Assembly (NCBI GenBank): GCA_001805105.1
Contig: MHEE01000012.1
Location: 266,750-312,070, forward strand
Direction of reading: 5' to 3'
Source of the DNA: Nitrospirae bacterium GWF2_44_13
Lineage (GTDB): Bacteria > Nitrospirota > Thermodesulfovibrionia > Thermodesulfovibrionales > UBA1546
Length of the DNA stretch: 45,321 nucleotides
Part shown: in pieces, positions 1 to 6,719 of the stretch
Numbering within the stretch: position 1 is the first letter of the stretch
How the letters are laid out: each line of letters starts with the position of its first letter
The notes under the pieces: model-generated
What the model was told of the DNA's origin: nothing
Seen by the model: the letters and a program-made list of their open reading frames with translations, nothing else
Database searches by the model: none
Translations under genes and position numbers: made by a program

Positions 1-962
1 GTCAAGACAGTGGTATCCACATATACCGGGCCTCTGCCCTCAAGCCACTCAGTCATCGGCGCAGTAAGCCTGTAAAAGCGCGGAGCCTTGTCACCGCCTT
101 CAGCGGCATAACGAACCTGCATTACCTTTTCACCTTTAGCATTTGTAATAAGGCATCCAAAGGCTACGGAAAGAGTATCAACCGGGCCGCAGAAATCCTT
201 TGTTCTTGTGGCAACCCATCTCTGTTCAAGCGAGGTCATCTCAGCTCCTGCGCGGATTCCCACTGCATAACCGGTTCCAACATTAAATGGAGACATCCAT
301 GTCTGGTGGTGAGCGCTTGAGTAATCGGTGACAGGAGACTTCCATATGCCGCAGGCCCCTCCAGTGGAAACTACAGTTGCTTTAGCGCGGAACACATACA
401 ACTTGCCGTCCCTGACGCCTAAGCCCATAGCGCCGACACACTTGTCGCCATCCATAAGGAGGTTCGTAGCAGCCACCCTGTTATAGACCTTGGCGCCCAT
501 CGCCATGGCTTTTTCTGCCATGATGGGTTTGAGTTGCTCGCCATGAATCGAAACATCGAAGCGCCCCCTGAGCTTTTTGTGCCCTTCTTCATCATAAGCG
601 AAGGGAAGCCCCCAGTCCTCAAGCATATCAACTGTTTCGTTCAATATATTCGCATTGCTCAAAGCCAGATCCTCGCGAATCGGCCCTCCCCCTACTTGCG
701 CCCGGCTCCACTTCACGAGACTTTCAGGGGTCTCCCCCTTGTCCTTACGCAGATAGGTATTGATTGCGTCCATGCCGGCAGCAGTTGCGCCGCTCCGGCT
801 GATGTTCGCCTTTTCCATGATGGTGACCTTGAGGTTAGGATCAAGTGTCTTTGCCTCCACGGCGACAAAACAACCCGCATTCCCTCCGCCAACAATCAGT
901 AAATCTGTTTCGATTACCTCTACCGGAATCTCTTCCAGGCTTTTAGGTATCTTCTGCTCCAT
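1..962 (-). CDS. AprA-like FAD flavoprotein (adenylylsulfate reductase alpha / fumarate reductase superfamily), 3' end beyond window
   Basis: The first 320 residues of a flavoprotein are present; the C-terminal part lies beyond the left edge. The ATG at 962 is preceded by AAAGGAGG. A Rossmann dinucleotide motif GGGNAG is at residues 25-30. The SRSG...AINTYL block (55-71), the STGGACGIW block (199-207) and FNVGTGYAVGIRAGAEM (226-242) match adenylylsulfate reductase alpha (AprA) more than succinate dehydrogenase, and the covalent-FAD histidine motif is absent. By recalled alignment the AprA active-site residues Asn74, Trp234 and Arg265 correspond to Asn68, Trp222 and Arg253. The catalytic His would lie outside the window. 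No aprB ferredoxin-type subunit and no sat gene precedes it; the upstream neighbours are transporters. It could therefore be an AprA paralogue reducing another substrate. Family call is firm, substrate unknown. Confidence 0.8.
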   Translation of the reverse strand, partial: MEQKIPKSLEEIPVEVIETDLLIVGGGNAGCFVAVEAKTLDPNLKVTIMEKANISRSGATAAGMDAINTYLRKDKGETPESLVKWSRAQVGGGPIREDLALSNANILNETVDMLEDWGLPFAYDEEGHKKLRGRFDVSIHGEQLKPIMAEKAMAMGAKVYNRVAATNLLMDGDKCVGAMGLGVRDGKLYVFRAKATVVSTGGACGIWKSPVTDYSSAHHQTWMSPFNVGTGYAVGIRAGAEMTSLEQRWVATRTKDFCGPVDTLSVAFGCLITNAKGEKVMQVRYAAEGGDKAPRFYRLTAPMTEWLEGRGPVYVDTTVL

Positions 963-1031
963 CTCTTCCTCCTTTCGAGTTAAAATTTTTGATGCATTAA
1001 TCTAAGAATATCCCTTTTACTCAGGGAAATC

Positions 1032-1047
1032 TGTCCTCTATAGGACA
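1032..1047. promoter_or_regulatory. 16-bp perfect palindrome upstream of the AprA-like gene
   Basis: TGTCCT-CTAT-AGGACA has perfect 6-bp arms. It lies about 70 bp upstream of the flavoprotein start, between that gene and the terminator of the DASS gene. Its TGTC-N8-GACA form is shared with the palindrome at 7086-7101 upstream of tctC. It is a candidate operator; the regulator is not in the window. Confidence 0.45.
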
Positions 1048-1070
1048 CAATAACAAAGCATAAATATAGA

Positions 1071-1104
1071 TAAAGAGAGGGAGGTTAATGCCTCCCTCTC
1101 TTTA
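1071..1104 (-). terminator. Stem-loop terminator after the DASS permease gene
   Basis: A perfect 14-bp inverted repeat (arms 1071-1084 and 1091-1104) encloses a 6-nt loop. The arms carry A/T at their outer ends, so it can terminate in either direction. It sits 40 bp past the DASS stop codon and separates that gene from the AprA-like gene, implying the flavoprotein has its own promoter. Confidence 0.7.
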
Positions 1105-1144
1105 TACGTTTTGAGAACCAGATGCCATGAGTGTTTTCACAGGA

Positions 1145-2641
1145 TTACAGCGGGTATCCTATTAATTTAAGCCATGCAGTCTGGACGACTATAACGTAAA
1201 CGTTAGCTATAATCGAGAGTATCCCTCCGAACTTGACAATTGTCCAGCCTGATGCGCCTGAAGCTCCCCATGCAATGAGAAATGCCGTAATTGATATCGG
1301 CAGGAAGAAGGCATAACTTAGACAGTTTGTCATAATTAAAGAGAACGGCAATACACCGAGGTTGAGCGTATGGGCCATTCCGATTAATAAAGGAACGAAG
1401 GCGGCTCCCATTGCAACTGCGCTTACTACCCCTGCCCTCGCAATATGCAGAGCGGCGGCAAGCACGAACATCAACACCATGGTGGGCAATCCCAGTCCCT
1501 GTAAGGGTTCTACAATGAGGCTCGACATCCAGGCTACCGTGCCGACGTCATACAAAATAACCCCCAGCGAAATCGCGCCCCCAAGCAATACCCATGTGTC
1601 CCACATAATATGTTTGTTAACATTCGCGAATTTAATCCCACTCCACGGCATGAACAACAACGCTGATGTTATTAACGCGACCATTCCGGACTTGATGCCA
1701 TGAAAGCTTTCTGTCATCCAGAGGGCCAGGCCTATGAGGATACTGAAAACAGCCCATTTCTCGCCAAATGACATCACGCCCAACTCTTGTTTCATCTTTG
1801 GGATCTCCACCTCGGCGCCGGGTATCTCCAGCTTCCACAGCTTAAAATAGGTAAAGACATACCAAAACATTATCGGCAGCAGCCCCCAAAGCGGAAGGTT
1901 AAGCCAAGCCCAATCCAACCATGATATATATATCCCTTCACTTTCCTTTAATTGATTTGCAAGTATCAGATTAGGGAAGTGGCTGGTGAGAATACACACC
2001 CCCGTAAAGAGCGGCGTCAATCCCGGTGTCTGGAGTAATAACGCCATATTAATCCTTTTGACTTCCGGCAGGTGTTCCTTTCCCTTCATTAACGTGCCGA
2101 TGGCCTTCGTAACAGGCAAAAAGAGCGCTGTTTCAGAAACAGTGGGCAAAACAGAACCTACCGCTACGTCTGCCAGTCCAAGGCCTGTCTGAATTCTCGT
2201 GACCTTATTTGACTTCAATAGTGTAACGATCTTCAATGCGATCCTTTTGCCGAGAGGCGTTCCCATCATAATGCCCGCAATTACAAAAGCCCCGCCCGCC
2301 AGAAAGAATAGATCGGTCGAGAATGATTTAAATGCAACGCCCGGTTTAATTCCGGCAAATAGCACGACCAGCATCGGAGATGTAAATCCGACGATTGCCT
2401 TTGGAAGGGCATCCGAGACCATTACGGTGATAAACCAAAGAAAAACTCCAAGCACTGACTGCGACGTGGGCCTCAGGCCCGGGATTGCAGGGCCAAAATG
2501 CAGTGCAAATAGTATCGCAAAGGCAATGATCAACCCAATGGTCGCCTTTTTAGGTTTTGCGACCTCGGCCTCCTCCGCCTCCTCGAGAGCCTTCATTCTC
2601 TCTTCTAAATACGACTCTTCCTTCTGAACCTTTTCATCCAT
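1145..2641 (-). CDS. DASS/SLC13-type anion permease
   Basis: A 498-residue polytopic membrane protein of the divalent anion:sodium symporter (SLC13/CitT) type, probably importing a dicarboxylate, sulfate or related anion. An acidic, lysine-rich helical N-terminal extension (residues 1-33) precedes about 11-12 hydrophobic segments. The first Ser-Asn-Thr substrate/sodium signature of the family reads Ser-Glu-Thr at 169-171 (VSETAL). The matching C-terminal repeat reads ARAGVVSAVAMG rather than an SNT motif, so the substrate or coupling ion may differ from characterised members. The start at 2641 has a GGAGGG ribosome site. It lies 27 bp downstream of the PhnD-like gene and is probably co-transcribed with it. 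Confidence 0.8.
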   Translation of the reverse strand: MDEKVQKEESYLEERMKALEEAEEAEVAKPKKATIGLIIAFAILFALHFGPAIPGLRPTSQSVLGVFLWFITVMVSDALPKAIVGFTSPMLVVLFAGIKPGVAFKSFSTDLFFLAGGAFVIAGIMMGTPLGKRIALKIVTLLKSNKVTRIQTGLGLADVAVGSVLPTVSETALFLPVTKAIGTLMKGKEHLPEVKRINMALLLQTPGLTPLFTGVCILTSHFPNLILANQLKESEGIYISWLDWAWLNLPLWGLLPIMFWYVFTYFKLWKLEIPGAEVEIPKMKQELGVMSFGEKWAVFSILIGLALWMTESFHGIKSGMVALITSALLFMPWSGIKFANVNKHIMWDTWVLLGGAISLGVILYDVGTVAWMSSLIVEPLQGLGLPTMVLMFVLAAALHIARAGVVSAVAMGAAFVPLLIGMAHTLNLGVLPFSLIMTNCLSYAFFLPISITAFLIAWGASGASGWTIVKFGGILSIIANVYVIVVQTAWLKLIGYPL

Positions 2642-2668
2642 AAGTTCCCTCCTTTTAAACTTGGATTT

Positions 2669-3490
2669 TTAGAAAACTCCAGCCGCTTTAGCCGCTTCCC
2701 TCATCGGTTCATAGTCTTTATCGGCCGTCGGGACAAACCCCGCAAGGTTAGCCTCTTTCAGCGCCCTATCTGCCTCTGCCGAGAGAGGCTTCAGTTTTAG
2801 AACGGCATTCTTCACTTTTGATGCAATGTCTTTATCTGTTTTCTTTGTTGTATGGACCGGCCAATTGGGCAGGTCAGCTGTATTCCCGATTACCCTCATC
2901 ATGTCTGCGTACGACAGTTTCTTAAAGACCCCTGTAGGCATCCCGCCTGCATCCGCCTTTCCGTCTCTTACCGCTTCTGCCACCTTTGGGGGTTTCCCGG
3001 CAAAGGTGATTGTGATATCCTTCTTTTCGATGCCGGCCTTCTTAAGCTCTAACATCTGGGCTACATAGCCGGCGGCTGAGCCGGTGTCAACAAAACTGAT
3101 TTTCTTGCCTTTCAGGTCTTTTATGGATTTTATAGGACTCTCTTTTGCCACAATGAAGACCCCTTTTAATTTGCCGGTGACTGCTGCCAGAGGTTCGACC
3201 TGTGAAACCGCTTTTTTGATATCAATGTAGACATTGGGATTGGCGAACCCGATGTCAAAATCGCCTGCGATTGCCTGTTTGGCATACGTGTCAAAATCCT
3301 TGGGGATCACCAAGGTGACCTTTGAACCGGTCTCTTTTGCAATGAATTGCGCCAGCGGAGTATACATTTCACGCAGTGTTTGCTCCGGCTGCGTCGGAAG
3401 CACGCCTAATTTTATTTCCGCTCCCATCCCCATTGAAGGCACTATCAAAAGCAAAGACAAAAACAGTAAAACCATCGCCATCTTCTTCAT
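2669..3490 (-). CDS. PhnD-type periplasmic substrate-binding protein (phosphonate/phosphite/oxyanion family), orphan
   Basis: A 273-residue secreted binding protein. A clear signal peptide (KKMAMVLLFLSLLLIVPSMGMGA) covers residues 2-24. The mature protein starts with EIKLGVLPTQP and contains the FDIGFANPNVY block typical of PhnD-like type-2 periplasmic binding proteins. Family members bind phosphonate, phosphite, arsenite and other small anions. No ABC permease or ATPase gene is adjacent; it is flanked by tctA and a DASS permease. It may deliver ligand to a sensor, serve the neighbouring permease, or work with an ABC transporter elsewhere. The ligand cannot be read from the sequence. Confidence 0.8.
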   Translation of the reverse strand: MKKMAMVLLFLSLLLIVPSMGMGAEIKLGVLPTQPEQTLREMYTPLAQFIAKETGSKVTLVIPKDFDTYAKQAIAGDFDIGFANPNVYIDIKKAVSQVEPLAAVTGKLKGVFIVAKESPIKSIKDLKGKKISFVDTGSAAGYVAQMLELKKAGIEKKDITITFAGKPPKVAEAVRDGKADAGGMPTGVFKKLSYADMMRVIGNTADLPNWPVHTTKKTDKDIASKVKNAVLKLKPLSAEADRALKEANLAGFVPTADKDYEPMREAAKAAGVF

Positions 3491-3577
3491 TTTGCCCCCC
3501 CGTCTTCATCTACTTCTGGATAAAGACATATTTTTAAGGTTTCTATACGGCAAAGCTGTATTTGTTCTGCATTCTTA

Positions 3578-3597
3578 GAAGTATGCCTGATGAACTG
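3578..3597. repeat. 20-bp direct repeat, copy 1, upstream of the PhnD-like gene
   Basis: GAAGTATGCCTGATGAACTG occurs here and, identically and in the same orientation, at 6891-6910. This copy is about 90 bp upstream of the PhnD-like start. It is a candidate shared regulatory site or duplicated upstream segment. Confidence 0.6.
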
Positions 3598-3620
3598 CTT
3601 TTTATCACCATATGCCAGTG

Positions 3621-3652
3621 ATGGGTGCGCAAATCTCTTTTTGCGCACCCAT
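3621..3652. terminator. Strong stem-loop downstream of tctA
   Basis: A perfect 13-bp G+C-rich stem (arms 3621-3633 and 3640-3652) with a 6-nt loop lies 37 bp beyond the tctA stop codon. On the minus strand the stem is not followed by a clear U-run, so it may be a weak terminator or an mRNA-stabilising 3' hairpin of the tctCBA transcript. Confidence 0.55.
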
Positions 3653-3689
3653 CTTTATTATTAACTCATTGCATTAGGCCTCTCCTGTG

Positions 3690-5204
3690 TCATGCCGCCA
3701 AGTTCTTTTCAATGTTCTGGCTCTTCCATTTTCCTATACCTGTCTTTATGACAACATAAGCCGTAATAGCCATTAAAGCCATAGCCACAGGACGGGTGAA
3801 AAACATATAAGGAGCATGCTCTGATGCAATTACGACTTGCTGAAGCGCCGTTTCCCAAATTGGAGCAAGAATAAATCCAATAATAAGACAGATGTGGCTG
3901 AAATCAAACTTTCTCATGAAGTATGCAACAAAGGCAAAAAACAACATTAACGTCACATCGAATGTGGAAAACTCCGCCAAATACGAGCCCATGATGCAAG
4001 TGAAGATGATACAGGGATAAAGGATAGCAGGCGGAGCTTTTACCACCTTGCAAAACGTTGTTAACCCAACGCGCCCGACAACAAGCAGCATGCCGCTGGC
4101 AATGATTAAACTGCCGTAGATGCCGTAGATGAACTGCGCGTTCTGTTCAAACATCAAGGGCCCCGGGATCATGCCGTGAACTACGAACGCGCCGATGAGC
4201 AGGGCAGCAGCCACATTGCCCGGAATACCCAGAGTGAACAGAGGAATAAGGCTAGCCGCAACGACCGAACTGTTGGCCGATTCAGAGGCGAATATCCCCT
4301 CAAGCTTGCCTTTGCCGAACTCTTCAGGCGTTTTTGAATTTTTCTTTGCCTGGTCATAAGCAAAGAACGAGGCCACCGGCGCGCCGAGGCCGGGCAAAGC
4401 TCCGACCACTGTGCCTGCAATGGATGAACGCAATAAAGTTTTGGCGCTGCCGCGCCACTCGGCCCATGAAATGTAGCGATCTTCCGGTTTAGACGAGAAT
4501 GATACTGTGCATTCGGGGCTGCCTGCTTTGATACGGCGCTCTAATTGGAGGATGATTTCCGAAAAAGCCAACATCCCGATGCCGATAGGAATAAGTGATA
4601 TGCCCCTTTCCAATTGATATAAACCAAAGGTTAAACGCGGCAGTGCCGATACCGATTCTATGCCGATGGTGCCTATCAAAATCCCGGCCGCAGCGGCTAT
4701 AAGGCCCCGCGTAAGAGACGCCTCTCCCAGCCCCGCAATGATGGTCAGGGCCAGGCAAATCAAAGCAAAGATTTCCGGAGGCCCCATGTACAAGGCCACA
4801 GTCGCAAGCGGCGCGGCCACCAAAATAAGCACTACGGTCGAAAAGAAATCCCCTGTAACCGACCCATAGAGCGCCGCGCGCAAAGCCTTTTCTCCCTTGC
4901 CTTGTACGCACAATGGATAGCCGTCCCACGTGGTGGCCGCAGCTTCGGGCGTCCCCGGCGTATTGAGCAATACGCCGGAGATGGAGCCCCCAAAAAAAGC
5001 ACCCTTATTGAGTCCCACAAGAAAGCTGATGGCCGCCAGAGGGGACATGTAGTACGATAACGGTATGCACAGCGCAATGGCCATAGGCCCGTTAATGCCC
5101 GGAATAGCCCCCGCGATGACACCCGCGATGACACCTACTAACACAAACAGCAAATTTATAGGCTGTAGAGAATCTATAAATCCCGCAATGACAGTTTCCA
5201 GCAT
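3690..5204 (-). CDS. tctA: Tripartite tricarboxylate transporter, large membrane subunit TctA
   Basis: A 504-residue polytopic inner-membrane protein, the usual length for TctA, the channel-forming subunit that works with TctB and the periplasmic TctC to import organic anions. It shows the conserved N-terminal block GVIAGVIAGAIPGINGPMAIA and a second block, VVGALPGLGAPVASFFAYD, near residues 270-290. The start at 5204 is preceded by GGAGG. It follows tctB by 33 bp and ends the tctC-tctB-tctA operon. Confidence 0.95.
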   Translation of the reverse strand: MLETVIAGFIDSLQPINLLFVLVGVIAGVIAGAIPGINGPMAIALCIPLSYYMSPLAAISFLVGLNKGAFFGGSISGVLLNTPGTPEAAATTWDGYPLCVQGKGEKALRAALYGSVTGDFFSTVVLILVAAPLATVALYMGPPEIFALICLALTIIAGLGEASLTRGLIAAAAGILIGTIGIESVSALPRLTFGLYQLERGISLIPIGIGMLAFSEIILQLERRIKAGSPECTVSFSSKPEDRYISWAEWRGSAKTLLRSSIAGTVVGALPGLGAPVASFFAYDQAKKNSKTPEEFGKGKLEGIFASESANSSVVAASLIPLFTLGIPGNVAAALLIGAFVVHGMIPGPLMFEQNAQFIYGIYGSLIIASGMLLVVGRVGLTTFCKVVKAPPAILYPCIIFTCIMGSYLAEFSTFDVTLMLFFAFVAYFMRKFDFSHICLIIGFILAPIWETALQQVVIASEHAPYMFFTRPVAMALMAITAYVVIKTGIGKWKSQNIEKNLAA

Positions 5205-5237
5205 AACTAATTTACCTCCAATCCGAAATGTACTGGT

Positions 5238-5711
5238 TCATGGCATGGGCGCTCCAAGTCCGTAACGCATAGCCCCATACACTAAAAACGCCGCGCTAAG
5301 AGCCACGAGAACAATTGTAACCGGCTTGCGCTGCCCGCAAAGATACTGAATCACCAGCATAAACGCAATCGCGGCCGGAATAAAACCGATCCACATCATG
5401 GCATACATCAGCAGGACACTGGGGACAATGAAGCTGACAAGGTGCCGCAAATGCACCTTGGCTGCTTTACCGCTGTCCTCTGACAGATTTTTTTCAGGGC
5501 TCGCCGGTTTTGCGGATAAATATGAAAAAATATTCATCGCCAGCGCCAACACCGAAAGCGCCAATATGAAGCCGACAGTCACATTGGGCAAAACCGCTGC
5601 AGCAACACCGTAACCCGGATATTCAGGCGTGTAAGCCGGAATGATCCAGAATAAGAAGGCCGCACTGCACAGCGCAATGCCGCCATAGATGAAATTGTCC
5701 TTACGCGTCAT
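5238..5711 (-). CDS. tctB: Tripartite tricarboxylate transporter, small membrane subunit TctB
   Basis: A 157-residue hydrophobic protein with four predicted membrane segments, the architecture of the poorly conserved TctB subunit. The call leans on its position between tctC and tctA. The ATG at 5711 is preceded by AAGGAGGAG. The distance from tctC (57 bp) and to tctA (33 bp) supports one transcript. The middle loop (about residues 66-85) is charged and cytoplasmic. Confidence 0.88.
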   Translation of the reverse strand: MTRKDNFIYGGIALCSAAFLFWIIPAYTPEYPGYGVAAAVLPNVTVGFILALSVLALAMNIFSYLSAKPASPEKNLSEDSGKAAKVHLRHLVSFIVPSVLLMYAMMWIGFIPAAIAFMLVIQYLCGQRKPVTIVLVALSAAFLVYGAMRYGLGAPMP

Positions 5712-5768
5712 GCCCTCCTCCTTGAATAGAGCACAATAGCACTGTGTGTGCTTTGCTGCTCATCTCAC

Positions 5769-6719
5769 TTACTTACTTGCCGCTTCACGCGCAAAGCGCT
5801 CACTGGCCTGCTTCATATAGGTTTCAGCATGGGCGCGTCCCCATTGCACCGGGGCCATTTTCAGGGTCTCGGTAATCATTTTTTGAAGACCGGCATCCTT
5901 TGCAAGTTTGTCAACAACCTTTTGAATCCGGGCCAAGACGTCATTAGGTAAACCCTTTGGCGCGGCCAGCACCACAAACATTTCCACCGATTCGTCCCAG
6001 CCTTGTTCCTTCAAGGTGGGCACATCCCCATAAGGGTTAAGCCTGGTCGGGGTCGTTGCGGCCAGCAACTTCAATTTGCCGCCCTTGACGTATTCAAACA
6101 AAATGGCGCCCAAATGCCCCAGGTCCGCATGGCCGCCCATAATCGCTGATATTATCGAAGGACCGCCGGTGCTTGGCATAAGCGAAATGCTTACCCCTTC
6201 CTTGGCTGCTATGCGCTTCATAACATCCCGGTCGTCAGAACCCTGAAACATATAGGTCAACCCCTTCTTTTCCTTCTTGGCCCAATTGAAAGCGTCTTTC
6301 AGGGTCTTCCATGGGCGGTTAGGAGCGCAGACAAGGCCGCTTTGATTGAGCCCCATCATGGAAATGAACGTGAAATCATTAATAGTGTAGCCCGTTTTAA
6401 CATAATGCGGTGAATAGGTATACGCAGCCGTAGCCGATACGCCCAAGGTATAGCCGTCGGCCTTGGCGTTTTTCAGTTCCGTAGCCATCACGCTGCCATG
6501 GGAACCACCAGGAGTGTTGGCCACCAGTACGGGTTGTCCCAGTTCAGCGCTCATGGCATTAGCCAGCGAGCGGGTCAATAAATCAATCTGGGCGCCAGGC
6601 TTTGTCATAGTAAGCATTTTTATCGGATGATCCGGGAAGTCTGCCGCAAACACCGGCGGTGCAATGCACAAGCCGACAAGGACTGCACATAAAAGCAGGG
6701 TCATAAATGTGGAACGCAT
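5769..6719 (-). CDS. tctC: Tripartite tricarboxylate transporter substrate-binding protein TctC
   Basis: A 316-residue periplasmic binding protein of the TctC (Bug) family. The chosen ATG at 6719 has AAAGGAG upstream and begins a standard signal peptide ending near PPVFAADFPDHPI; the open frame continues further upstream but that part is neither signal-like nor conserved. The family core is visible as PGAQIDLLTRSLANAMSAEL, QPVLVANTPGGSHG and GGHADLGHLGAILFEYVKGG. Bug proteins bind carboxylates through a conserved pocket, but the ligand is not predictable here. First gene of the tct operon, preceded by a long intergenic region with a palindrome and a direct repeat. Confidence 0.93.
   Translation of the reverse strand: MRSTFMTLLLCAVLVGLCIAPPVFAADFPDHPIKMLTMTKPGAQIDLLTRSLANAMSAELGQPVLVANTPGGSHGSVMATELKNAKADGYTLGVSATAAYTYSPHYVKTGYTINDFTFISMMGLNQSGLVCAPNRPWKTLKDAFNWAKKEKKGLTYMFQGSDDRDVMKRIAAKEGVSISLMPSTGGPSIISAIMGGHADLGHLGAILFEYVKGGKLKLLAATTPTRLNPYGDVPTLKEQGWDESVEMFVVLAAPKGLPNDVLARIQKVVDKLAKDAGLQKMITETLKMAPVQWGRAHAETYMKQASERFAREAASK

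Follow-up and report, generated by a model that had tools for sequence, protein, structure and literature searches.

Introduction

What does an AprA-like flavoprotein do when its gene stands beside anion importers, in a genome that also holds a canonical aprA? The question is raised by a stretch of 45,321 nucleotides (the window; contig C12, positions 266750-312070) in the genome of Nitrospirae bacterium GWF2_44_13 (1.99 Mb, 18 contigs). Its AprA-like gene is a second, divergent paralogue beside the canonical aprA and belongs to a distinct clade, termed type I here, whose members share characteristic partner proteins, namely an AprB-like ferredoxin, Hdr-type proteins, a CRP-type regulator and importers. 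The locus is a variant of the AprAB kind, made of ordinary parts in a conserved combination; neither a description of such an operon nor a named AprA paralogue of this kind was found in searchable open-access text. The best overall explanation, which we put forward tentatively, is that type I AprAB, which has its own importers and electron supply, is a soluble enzyme that reduces some imported anion, one that is not adenosine 5'-phosphosulfate (APS).

Phylogeny of the AprA-like family

The canonical set, sat-aprB-aprA-qmoABC, was found on contig C13 of the same genome, where its aprA scores 876 bits against the TIGR02061 (aprA) cut-off of 642; a full-length dsrA is also present. A full-length orthologue of the window gene (P0001) stays below that cut-off with 396 bits.

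A scan of 84,980 species genomes yielded 72 loci of the family, which were sorted by context into two types. At type I loci, which occur in Thermodesulfovibrionia, Desulfobacterota and Bacillota, aprA'B' is accompanied by Hdr-type proteins, importers and a CRP regulator. Type II loci combine aprA'B' with sat, often together with Rrf2 and sulfite reductase, and are found in Nitrospiria, anammox and other Planctomycetes, Hadarchaeota and some Bacillota. In a tree built by a quick method, with support by the Shimodaira-Hasegawa-like approximate likelihood ratio test (SH-aLRT) only, type I forms one clade (35 rows, SH-aLRT 100). Its sister clade (SH-aLRT 97) unites type II with the 3'-phosphoadenosine 5'-phosphosulfate (PAPS) reductase of Methanothermococcus thermolithotrophicus (MtPAPSR), and canonical AprA is a third clade, far off. 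The initial annotation had named downstream aprB, sat or qmo genes, together with clustering inside canonical AprA, as the pattern that would speak for an ordinary AprA; aprB-like and qmo-like genes do follow, and the flavoprotein falls outside canonical AprA, with no link to sat.

The NCBI model NF005331 names type I proteins 'adenylyl-sulfate reductase subunit alpha' (599 bits, above its cut-off of 557), apparently wrongly. We do not file type I as an APS reductase because several of the features that define that enzyme fail, though its working appears AprAB-like, with flavin adenine dinucleotide (FAD), two clusters and a soluble Hdr-type supply. Divergent archaeal AprA-like proteins have been noted before (PMC7174415, PMC10504309), without a description of the type I clade. 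The flavoprotein of anaerobic benzene degradation (PMC13416013) was rejected as a member, since the text mentions only canonical AprAB/HdrB3C.

The type II sets look assimilatory, in the manner of the Methanothermococcus PAPS reductase (PMC10322725), and these loci (L078-L113, e.g. L078, L088, L094, L104) apparently represent a widespread flavin-type assimilatory sulfate pathway. Plasmid pILYOP02 of Ilyobacter polytropus (L115, 4949-11718) carries a DASS-cysC-aprA'B'-cysD-GTPase set, whose reductase seems to be an assimilatory enzyme acting on PAPS, of the same type. A third AprAB-like group was observed in the aerobes Paraburkholderia, Leptolyngbya and Tsukamurella (L116, L117, L118), in which a PRK08275/PRK13800 flavoprotein is joined by a small ferredoxin, an ABC importer and a HEAT-repeat protein. 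Two records titled 'Nitrospira japonica' and 'Burkholderiales bacterium' (L061 and L109) hold AprA-like genes that fall inside the Thermodesulfovibrionia group and are likely misnamed or mixed bins.

Within the lineage of the window, the paralogue occurs in three of 60 relatives (65-87% identity) and was found in none of the seven genus-mates, so the cassette is accessory here. The prfA-adjacent sequence, the site of the cassette here, lacks it in five genus-mates, several of those contigs ending soon after. A Desulfosporosinus metagenome-assembled genome (that of L071) holds a second, more divergent AprA-like gene (G088:C41:2864-4480; 343 bits) besides its type I copy.

Active site and subunits

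Residue numbers follow A. fulgidus AprA, in which N74, R265 and H398, together with W234, face the sulfate group; R265, V273, G274, Y95 and H446 contact the phosphate and ribose; and R317 and L278 clamp the adenine (PMC2211403). The substrate residues named in the initial annotation (Asn68, Trp222 and Arg253 of the window protein) are real: they align with N74, W234 and R265 and are invariant in the family. The H398 equivalent, for which it had suggested a search, is kept, likewise invariant, in the part of the gene beyond the window (H368 in the G059 orthologue). Type I also retains R317.

The residues around adenosine monophosphate (AMP) and the channel are rewritten in type I by the nearly fixed changes Y95W, Q145D, G274D, F277S, L278V and H446N, to which Trp at position 261 is added. 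Positions Y95, Q145, G274, L278 and H446 read W, D, D, V and N in 35-37 of the 37 type I proteins; H446N is present in all 37 and G274D in 36, the residue being Gly in 27/27 canonical and 32/32 sat-linked proteins. The PAPS triad K120/R121/S122 of MtPAPSR is R/F/D in the window protein and R/(F or W)/D across type I.

These positions bear on a reading of the enzyme as another APS or PAPS reductase, isozyme or assimilatory, supplied by the genome's own Sat. The nearest characterised relative is a PAPS reductase, the NF005331 match is above cut-off with the sulfate-facing residues kept, and the sat-linked relatives and Ilyobacter are clearly assimilatory, some of them with DASS alongside. However, the AMP-contacting positions are both changed and fixed, and the PAPS triad is absent, with Asp where the 3'-phosphate would lie, which makes this reading quite improbable when the gene neighbourhoods described below are also considered.

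The AlphaFold model (mean predicted local distance difference test score 83, segment 212-225 poor) best matches 8A8O (TM 0.90), then AprA 1JNR/2FJA, then fumarate reductases, and is silent on the ligand. The AprA fold is that of fumarate reductase, and by hand alignment the retained R317 and H398 match the catalytic Arg and His of FrdA. One possible substrate is an unsaturated di- or tricarboxylate resembling fumarate or aconitate, which would be imported and reduced at its C=C bond, oxidised and reduced acid being exchanged via a CitT/DiT-like DASS or TctABC. We consider this unlikely. The substrate-binding Arg of SdhA/FrdA (R399 in E. coli SdhA), which is Arg in the SdhA-like row (a row identified by its neighbours), is Lys in 36/36 type I proteins. 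The new acidic pocket residues D145 and D274 are ill-suited to a polycarboxylate, and all fumarate reductase and succinate dehydrogenase models score far below cut-off (TIGR01812, 146 against 567 bits; TfrA, 150 against 718 bits).

The small subunit, AprB', has 109 residues against 139 in the canonical protein and scores below the TIGR02060 cut-off. Eight Cys were found in all family members and Trp48 in 62 of 63.

Gene neighbourhood and importers

The genes of the cassette are listed below; L003 denotes C12:250001-270000, and a window position equals the L003 position minus 16749.

Window 5769-6719, minus strand: TctC binding protein
Window 5238-5711, minus strand: TctB
Window 3690-5204, minus strand: TctA
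Window 2669-3490, minus strand: PhnD-type periplasmic binding protein without ABC permease
Window 1145-2641, minus strand: DASS-family permease
Window 3-962, minus strand: AprA-like flavoprotein of type I, N-terminal 320 codons from the start codon at 962; the frame runs off the window edge
L003:15991-16731, minus strand: AprA-like C-terminus, 246 codons, across the gap and beyond the window
L003:15644-15973, minus strand: AprB-like ferredoxin, 109 aa
L003:13290-15644, minus strand: HdrA-FlpD fusion, 784 aa
L003:12835-13284, minus strand: HdrC, 149 aa
L003:11993-12838, minus strand: HdrB, 281 aa
L003:8666-9355, minus strand: CRP/FNR regulator

A scaffold gap of 16 N (L003:16734-16749) splits the AprA-like gene, and window base 1 lies directly after it. 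About 21 residues are hidden there, as estimated against the 87% identical G059 orthologue; the rest of the gene is intact. A pseudogene broken by a frameshift was ruled out for the window edge, as the break is an assembly gap and the orthologues are intact. The same-strand placement of the AprA-like gene, DASS, the PhnD-type protein and tctCBA given in the initial annotation is correct. That annotation, whose view held only half of the flavoprotein gene, also had it standing without aprB or sat; there is no sat at the locus, but an AprB-like gene directly follows, and then HdrA, HdrC and HdrB. In transcription order past the edge come the AprA-like C-terminus, AprB-like, HdrA-FlpD, HdrC, HdrB, a ChrA-type anion transporter, a PAPS-type sulfotransferase and CRP/FNR. 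The ChrA-type and sulfotransferase genes (L003:9485-11925), directly 3' of hdrB, adjoin the operon in this genome only among the loci read, for which reason a supply of PAPS from the neighbouring sulfotransferase running in reverse was dropped.

Synteny was counted over 37 type I loci, many of them on cut contigs and some from related genomes that are not independent. The most frequent neighbours were aprB (32), a CRP-type regulator (30), hdrA-like (27) and DASS (22), followed by hdrC and hdrB (14 each), PhnD (8), NAD(P)H-module genes (5) and TctC (4), with no occurrence of sat. DASS is enriched at type I loci, with 22/37 as compared with 3/33 for type II (p ~1e-5). The conserved synteny that the initial annotation had proposed to look for thus exists: TctC adjoins the type I gene in L050, L053, L055 and L067, and as DASS and PhnD also stand beside type I elsewhere, each of the window's three importer types recurs independently. 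The window DASS is the only DASS gene in the whole genome of ~2 Mb, and DASS, PhnD and Tct recur beside the same clade in other phyla, so the transporter link goes beyond chance.

No sat, cysC or sulfite reductase was found beside any type I operon in the loci read, and neither ATP sulfurylase, APS kinase, PAP phosphatase nor sulfite reductase occurs at the window operon or at type I loci, which, along with the hosts that have no sat, argues against another APS or PAPS reductase. No link to qmoABC and no further catabolic enzyme conserved beside the operon was found at type I loci. The window DASS is not of the SEHA/PEHA subtype of the sat-linked neighbours, the motif differing between type I and sat-linked DASS. 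Sulfate import for assimilation is ruled out for type I by this different motif and by the absence of sat, cysC and sulfite reductase nearby.

The window DASS has PTV and SAV at the positions aligned with the VcINDY-type SNT motifs, which it lacks. Many type I DASS carry an ARA motif, as does the plant dicarboxylate exchanger DiT2.1; this motif, the DASS/Tct context and the CRP-type regulator nearby are in keeping with C=C reduction. The nearest solved relative of the PhnD-type protein is PtxB, whose anion-binding STS loop is replaced by SAA in the window protein. Oxidation of phosphite to ADP via AMP-dependent chemistry, a candidate prompted by this protein, was ruled out because type I does not retain the AMP pocket and the PhnD-type protein lacks the anion loop of PtxB.

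Electron supply

At most type I loci the electron module is HdrA-HdrC-HdrB, and in the window operon the HdrA flavoprotein, HdrC and HdrB with CCG domains are all present. L050 and L055 have HdrA with AsrA/HydB-like and AsrB/HydG-like NAD(P)H proteins; in Acididesulfobacillus and relatives these NAD(P)H proteins are joined by an FlpD/ferredoxin protein, and a FAD-type HdrA is missing. In our reading the catalytic core and importer stay constant and the electron input can be exchanged, a pattern that favours a reductase.

In the opposite direction, the flavoprotein would oxidise an imported donor and deliver the electrons to DsrC-type thiols, ferredoxin or NAD(P)+, with HdrA/HdrCB or the NAD(P)H module in between. 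HdrA/Flx-type modules can run either way, and the hosts have Dsr as an electron taker. Canonical AprA is reversible, and oxidative in sulfur oxidisers (PMC10504309). On the other hand, the close relatives with a known or inferred role are reductases, no activity in reverse was seen with the Methanothermococcus enzyme (PMC10322725), and no conserved downstream enzymes for an oxidised product were found at type I loci. We regard oxidative running as the least probable of the readings weighed here.

Hosts

A dsrA above cut-off is present in 30 of 36 hosts of type I and in 1 of 14 hosts of type II (p ~1e-6). For canonical aprA the counts are 25/36 and 0/14, and sat was found in 28/36 hosts of type I. 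Three Bacillota hosts have dsrA and neither sat nor canonical aprA in the genomes examined. One of them is Desulfosporosinus nitrosoreducens PR (L066), where a type I protein is the sole AprA homologue at E <=1e-100. The published description gives this strain aprAB and dsrAB without sat, and reports a lack of growth on sulfate (PMC11096178). Since its genome holds no canonical aprA, the reported aprAB are probably the type I pair. Acididesulfobacillus acetoxydans carries aprA of the canonical kind as well as of type I; neither fumarate nor sulfite serves it as an acceptor (PMC8982180). Its possession of the operon without use of fumarate speaks mildly against fumarate as the substrate, and a plain C4-dicarboxylate is disfavoured.

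Proposed function

Import and reduction of some anion, as the initial annotation had suggested, remains the best fit, its substrate being conjectural. That the substrate of type I AprAB is imported and is not APS we consider likely, and that the reaction is reductive fairly probable, if slightly less so. An organic anion or an oxo-anion other than sulfate would enter by DASS, by TctABC or with the help of the PhnD-type binding protein. Electrons would pass from HdrC/HdrB and HdrA-FlpD, or from the NAD(P)H module in other lineages, over the two [4Fe-4S] clusters and Trp48 of AprB to FAD, and FADH- would attack the substrate at the retained Asn74/Trp234/Arg265/His398 site. Sulfite might then be reductively released from a non-nucleotide sulfo-bearing anion, for use by Dsr. 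Three points make release of sulfite appear the likeliest chemistry: type I retains the residues that face the sulfo group, its AMP pocket has been remodelled, and DsrAB is present in nearly all hosts. A sulfite-yielding sulfo-substrate is nevertheless rather doubtful as a claim of its own.

Several points weigh against this explanation. We know of no activity for any type I member, and the relatives of DASS and Tct mostly carry carboxylates. Pocket columns that differ between type I and canonical AprA are only marginally enriched (6/8 against 52/150 elsewhere, p = 0.052), so the pocket case rests on which residues changed more than on how many did. Retention of N74 and W234 need not mean a sulfo-substrate because both also contact the flavin. 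The absence of sat and aprA from draft genomes may reflect missing sequence, and both ancestry and the transfer of genes between sulfate reducers confound the DsrAB link.

It is conceivable, though rather unlikely, that type I represents a new respiratory enzyme class in sulfate reducers, an AprAB-type flavoenzyme that, with no need of activation by ATP, frees sulfite directly from a sulfo-anion, organic or inorganic, after its import and supplies it to DsrAB. If so, strains without Sat could use a sulfur acceptor other than sulfate. More generally, a clade that handles another imported anion would give sulfate reducers of Nitrospirota, Desulfobacterota and Bacillota an extra respiratory or catabolic capacity. 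Since aprA serves as a standard marker for both sulfate reduction and sulfur oxidation, surveys would be misled by a clade that automatic annotation calls 'APS reductase' and that has another AMP pocket and gene context. This seems to have happened once, in the description of strain PR as having aprAB without sat. Cultured type I hosts exist in A. acetoxydans and D. nitrosoreducens PR.

Candidate regulatory signals

Three candidate signals were located between the genes.

Window 1032-1047, minus strand: perfect palindrome TGTCCTATAGAGGACA, 70 nt before the aprA-like start
Window 1070-1105, minus strand: 15-bp terminator-like hairpin between DASS and aprA-like
Window 3620-3653, plus strand: strong 14-bp terminator-like hairpin between the PhnD-type gene and tctA

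The palindrome also lies 5' of aprA-like in L043 (1 mismatch, 68 nt) and L073 (0 mismatches, 87 nt), with ~0 occurrences expected at <=1 mismatch; it was not seen at most other type I loci. The neighbouring CRP-type regulator probably uses it as its operator. The cassette may comprise several transcription units because of the hairpin at 3620-3653.

Comparison with known systems

Among solved structures MtPAPSR (8A8O) comes closest in sequence (505 bits) and in fold (TM 0.90, 44% identity), and it shares the catalytic residues and the pairing of an alpha subunit with a mainly ferredoxin-like beta subunit. Type I differs from it in the absence of K120/R121/S122, in the replacement of G274 by D and of H446 by N, and in a window operon that is linked to Hdr proteins and importers, with no APS kinase or PAP phosphatase nearby.

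The dissimilatory AprBA enzymes (1JNR, 2FJA, 3GYX) have in common with type I the fold, FAD and two [4Fe-4S] clusters, N74/W234/R265/H398/R317 and Trp48 of AprB. Type I is nonetheless a separate clade of ~37% identity with shorter alpha and beta subunits, a rewritten AMP pocket and the gene order aprA-aprB, with no sat or qmoABC.

The QmoAB-HdrCB system of Desulfotomaculum-type sulfate reducers (PMC4148979) likewise places HdrA-type flavoproteins and HdrC/HdrB beside an AprAB-type enzyme, whereas the window has a single HdrA-FlpD, no QmoA and no sat link, and some type I lineages have the NAD(P)H module instead. The PRK08275/PRK13800 proteins of aerobes resemble type I in that an AprA-like alpha subunit and a small ferredoxin stand beside an anion-type importer; they are ~31% identical and have an ABC importer, a HEAT-repeat protein and LysR/GntR regulators, with no Hdr.

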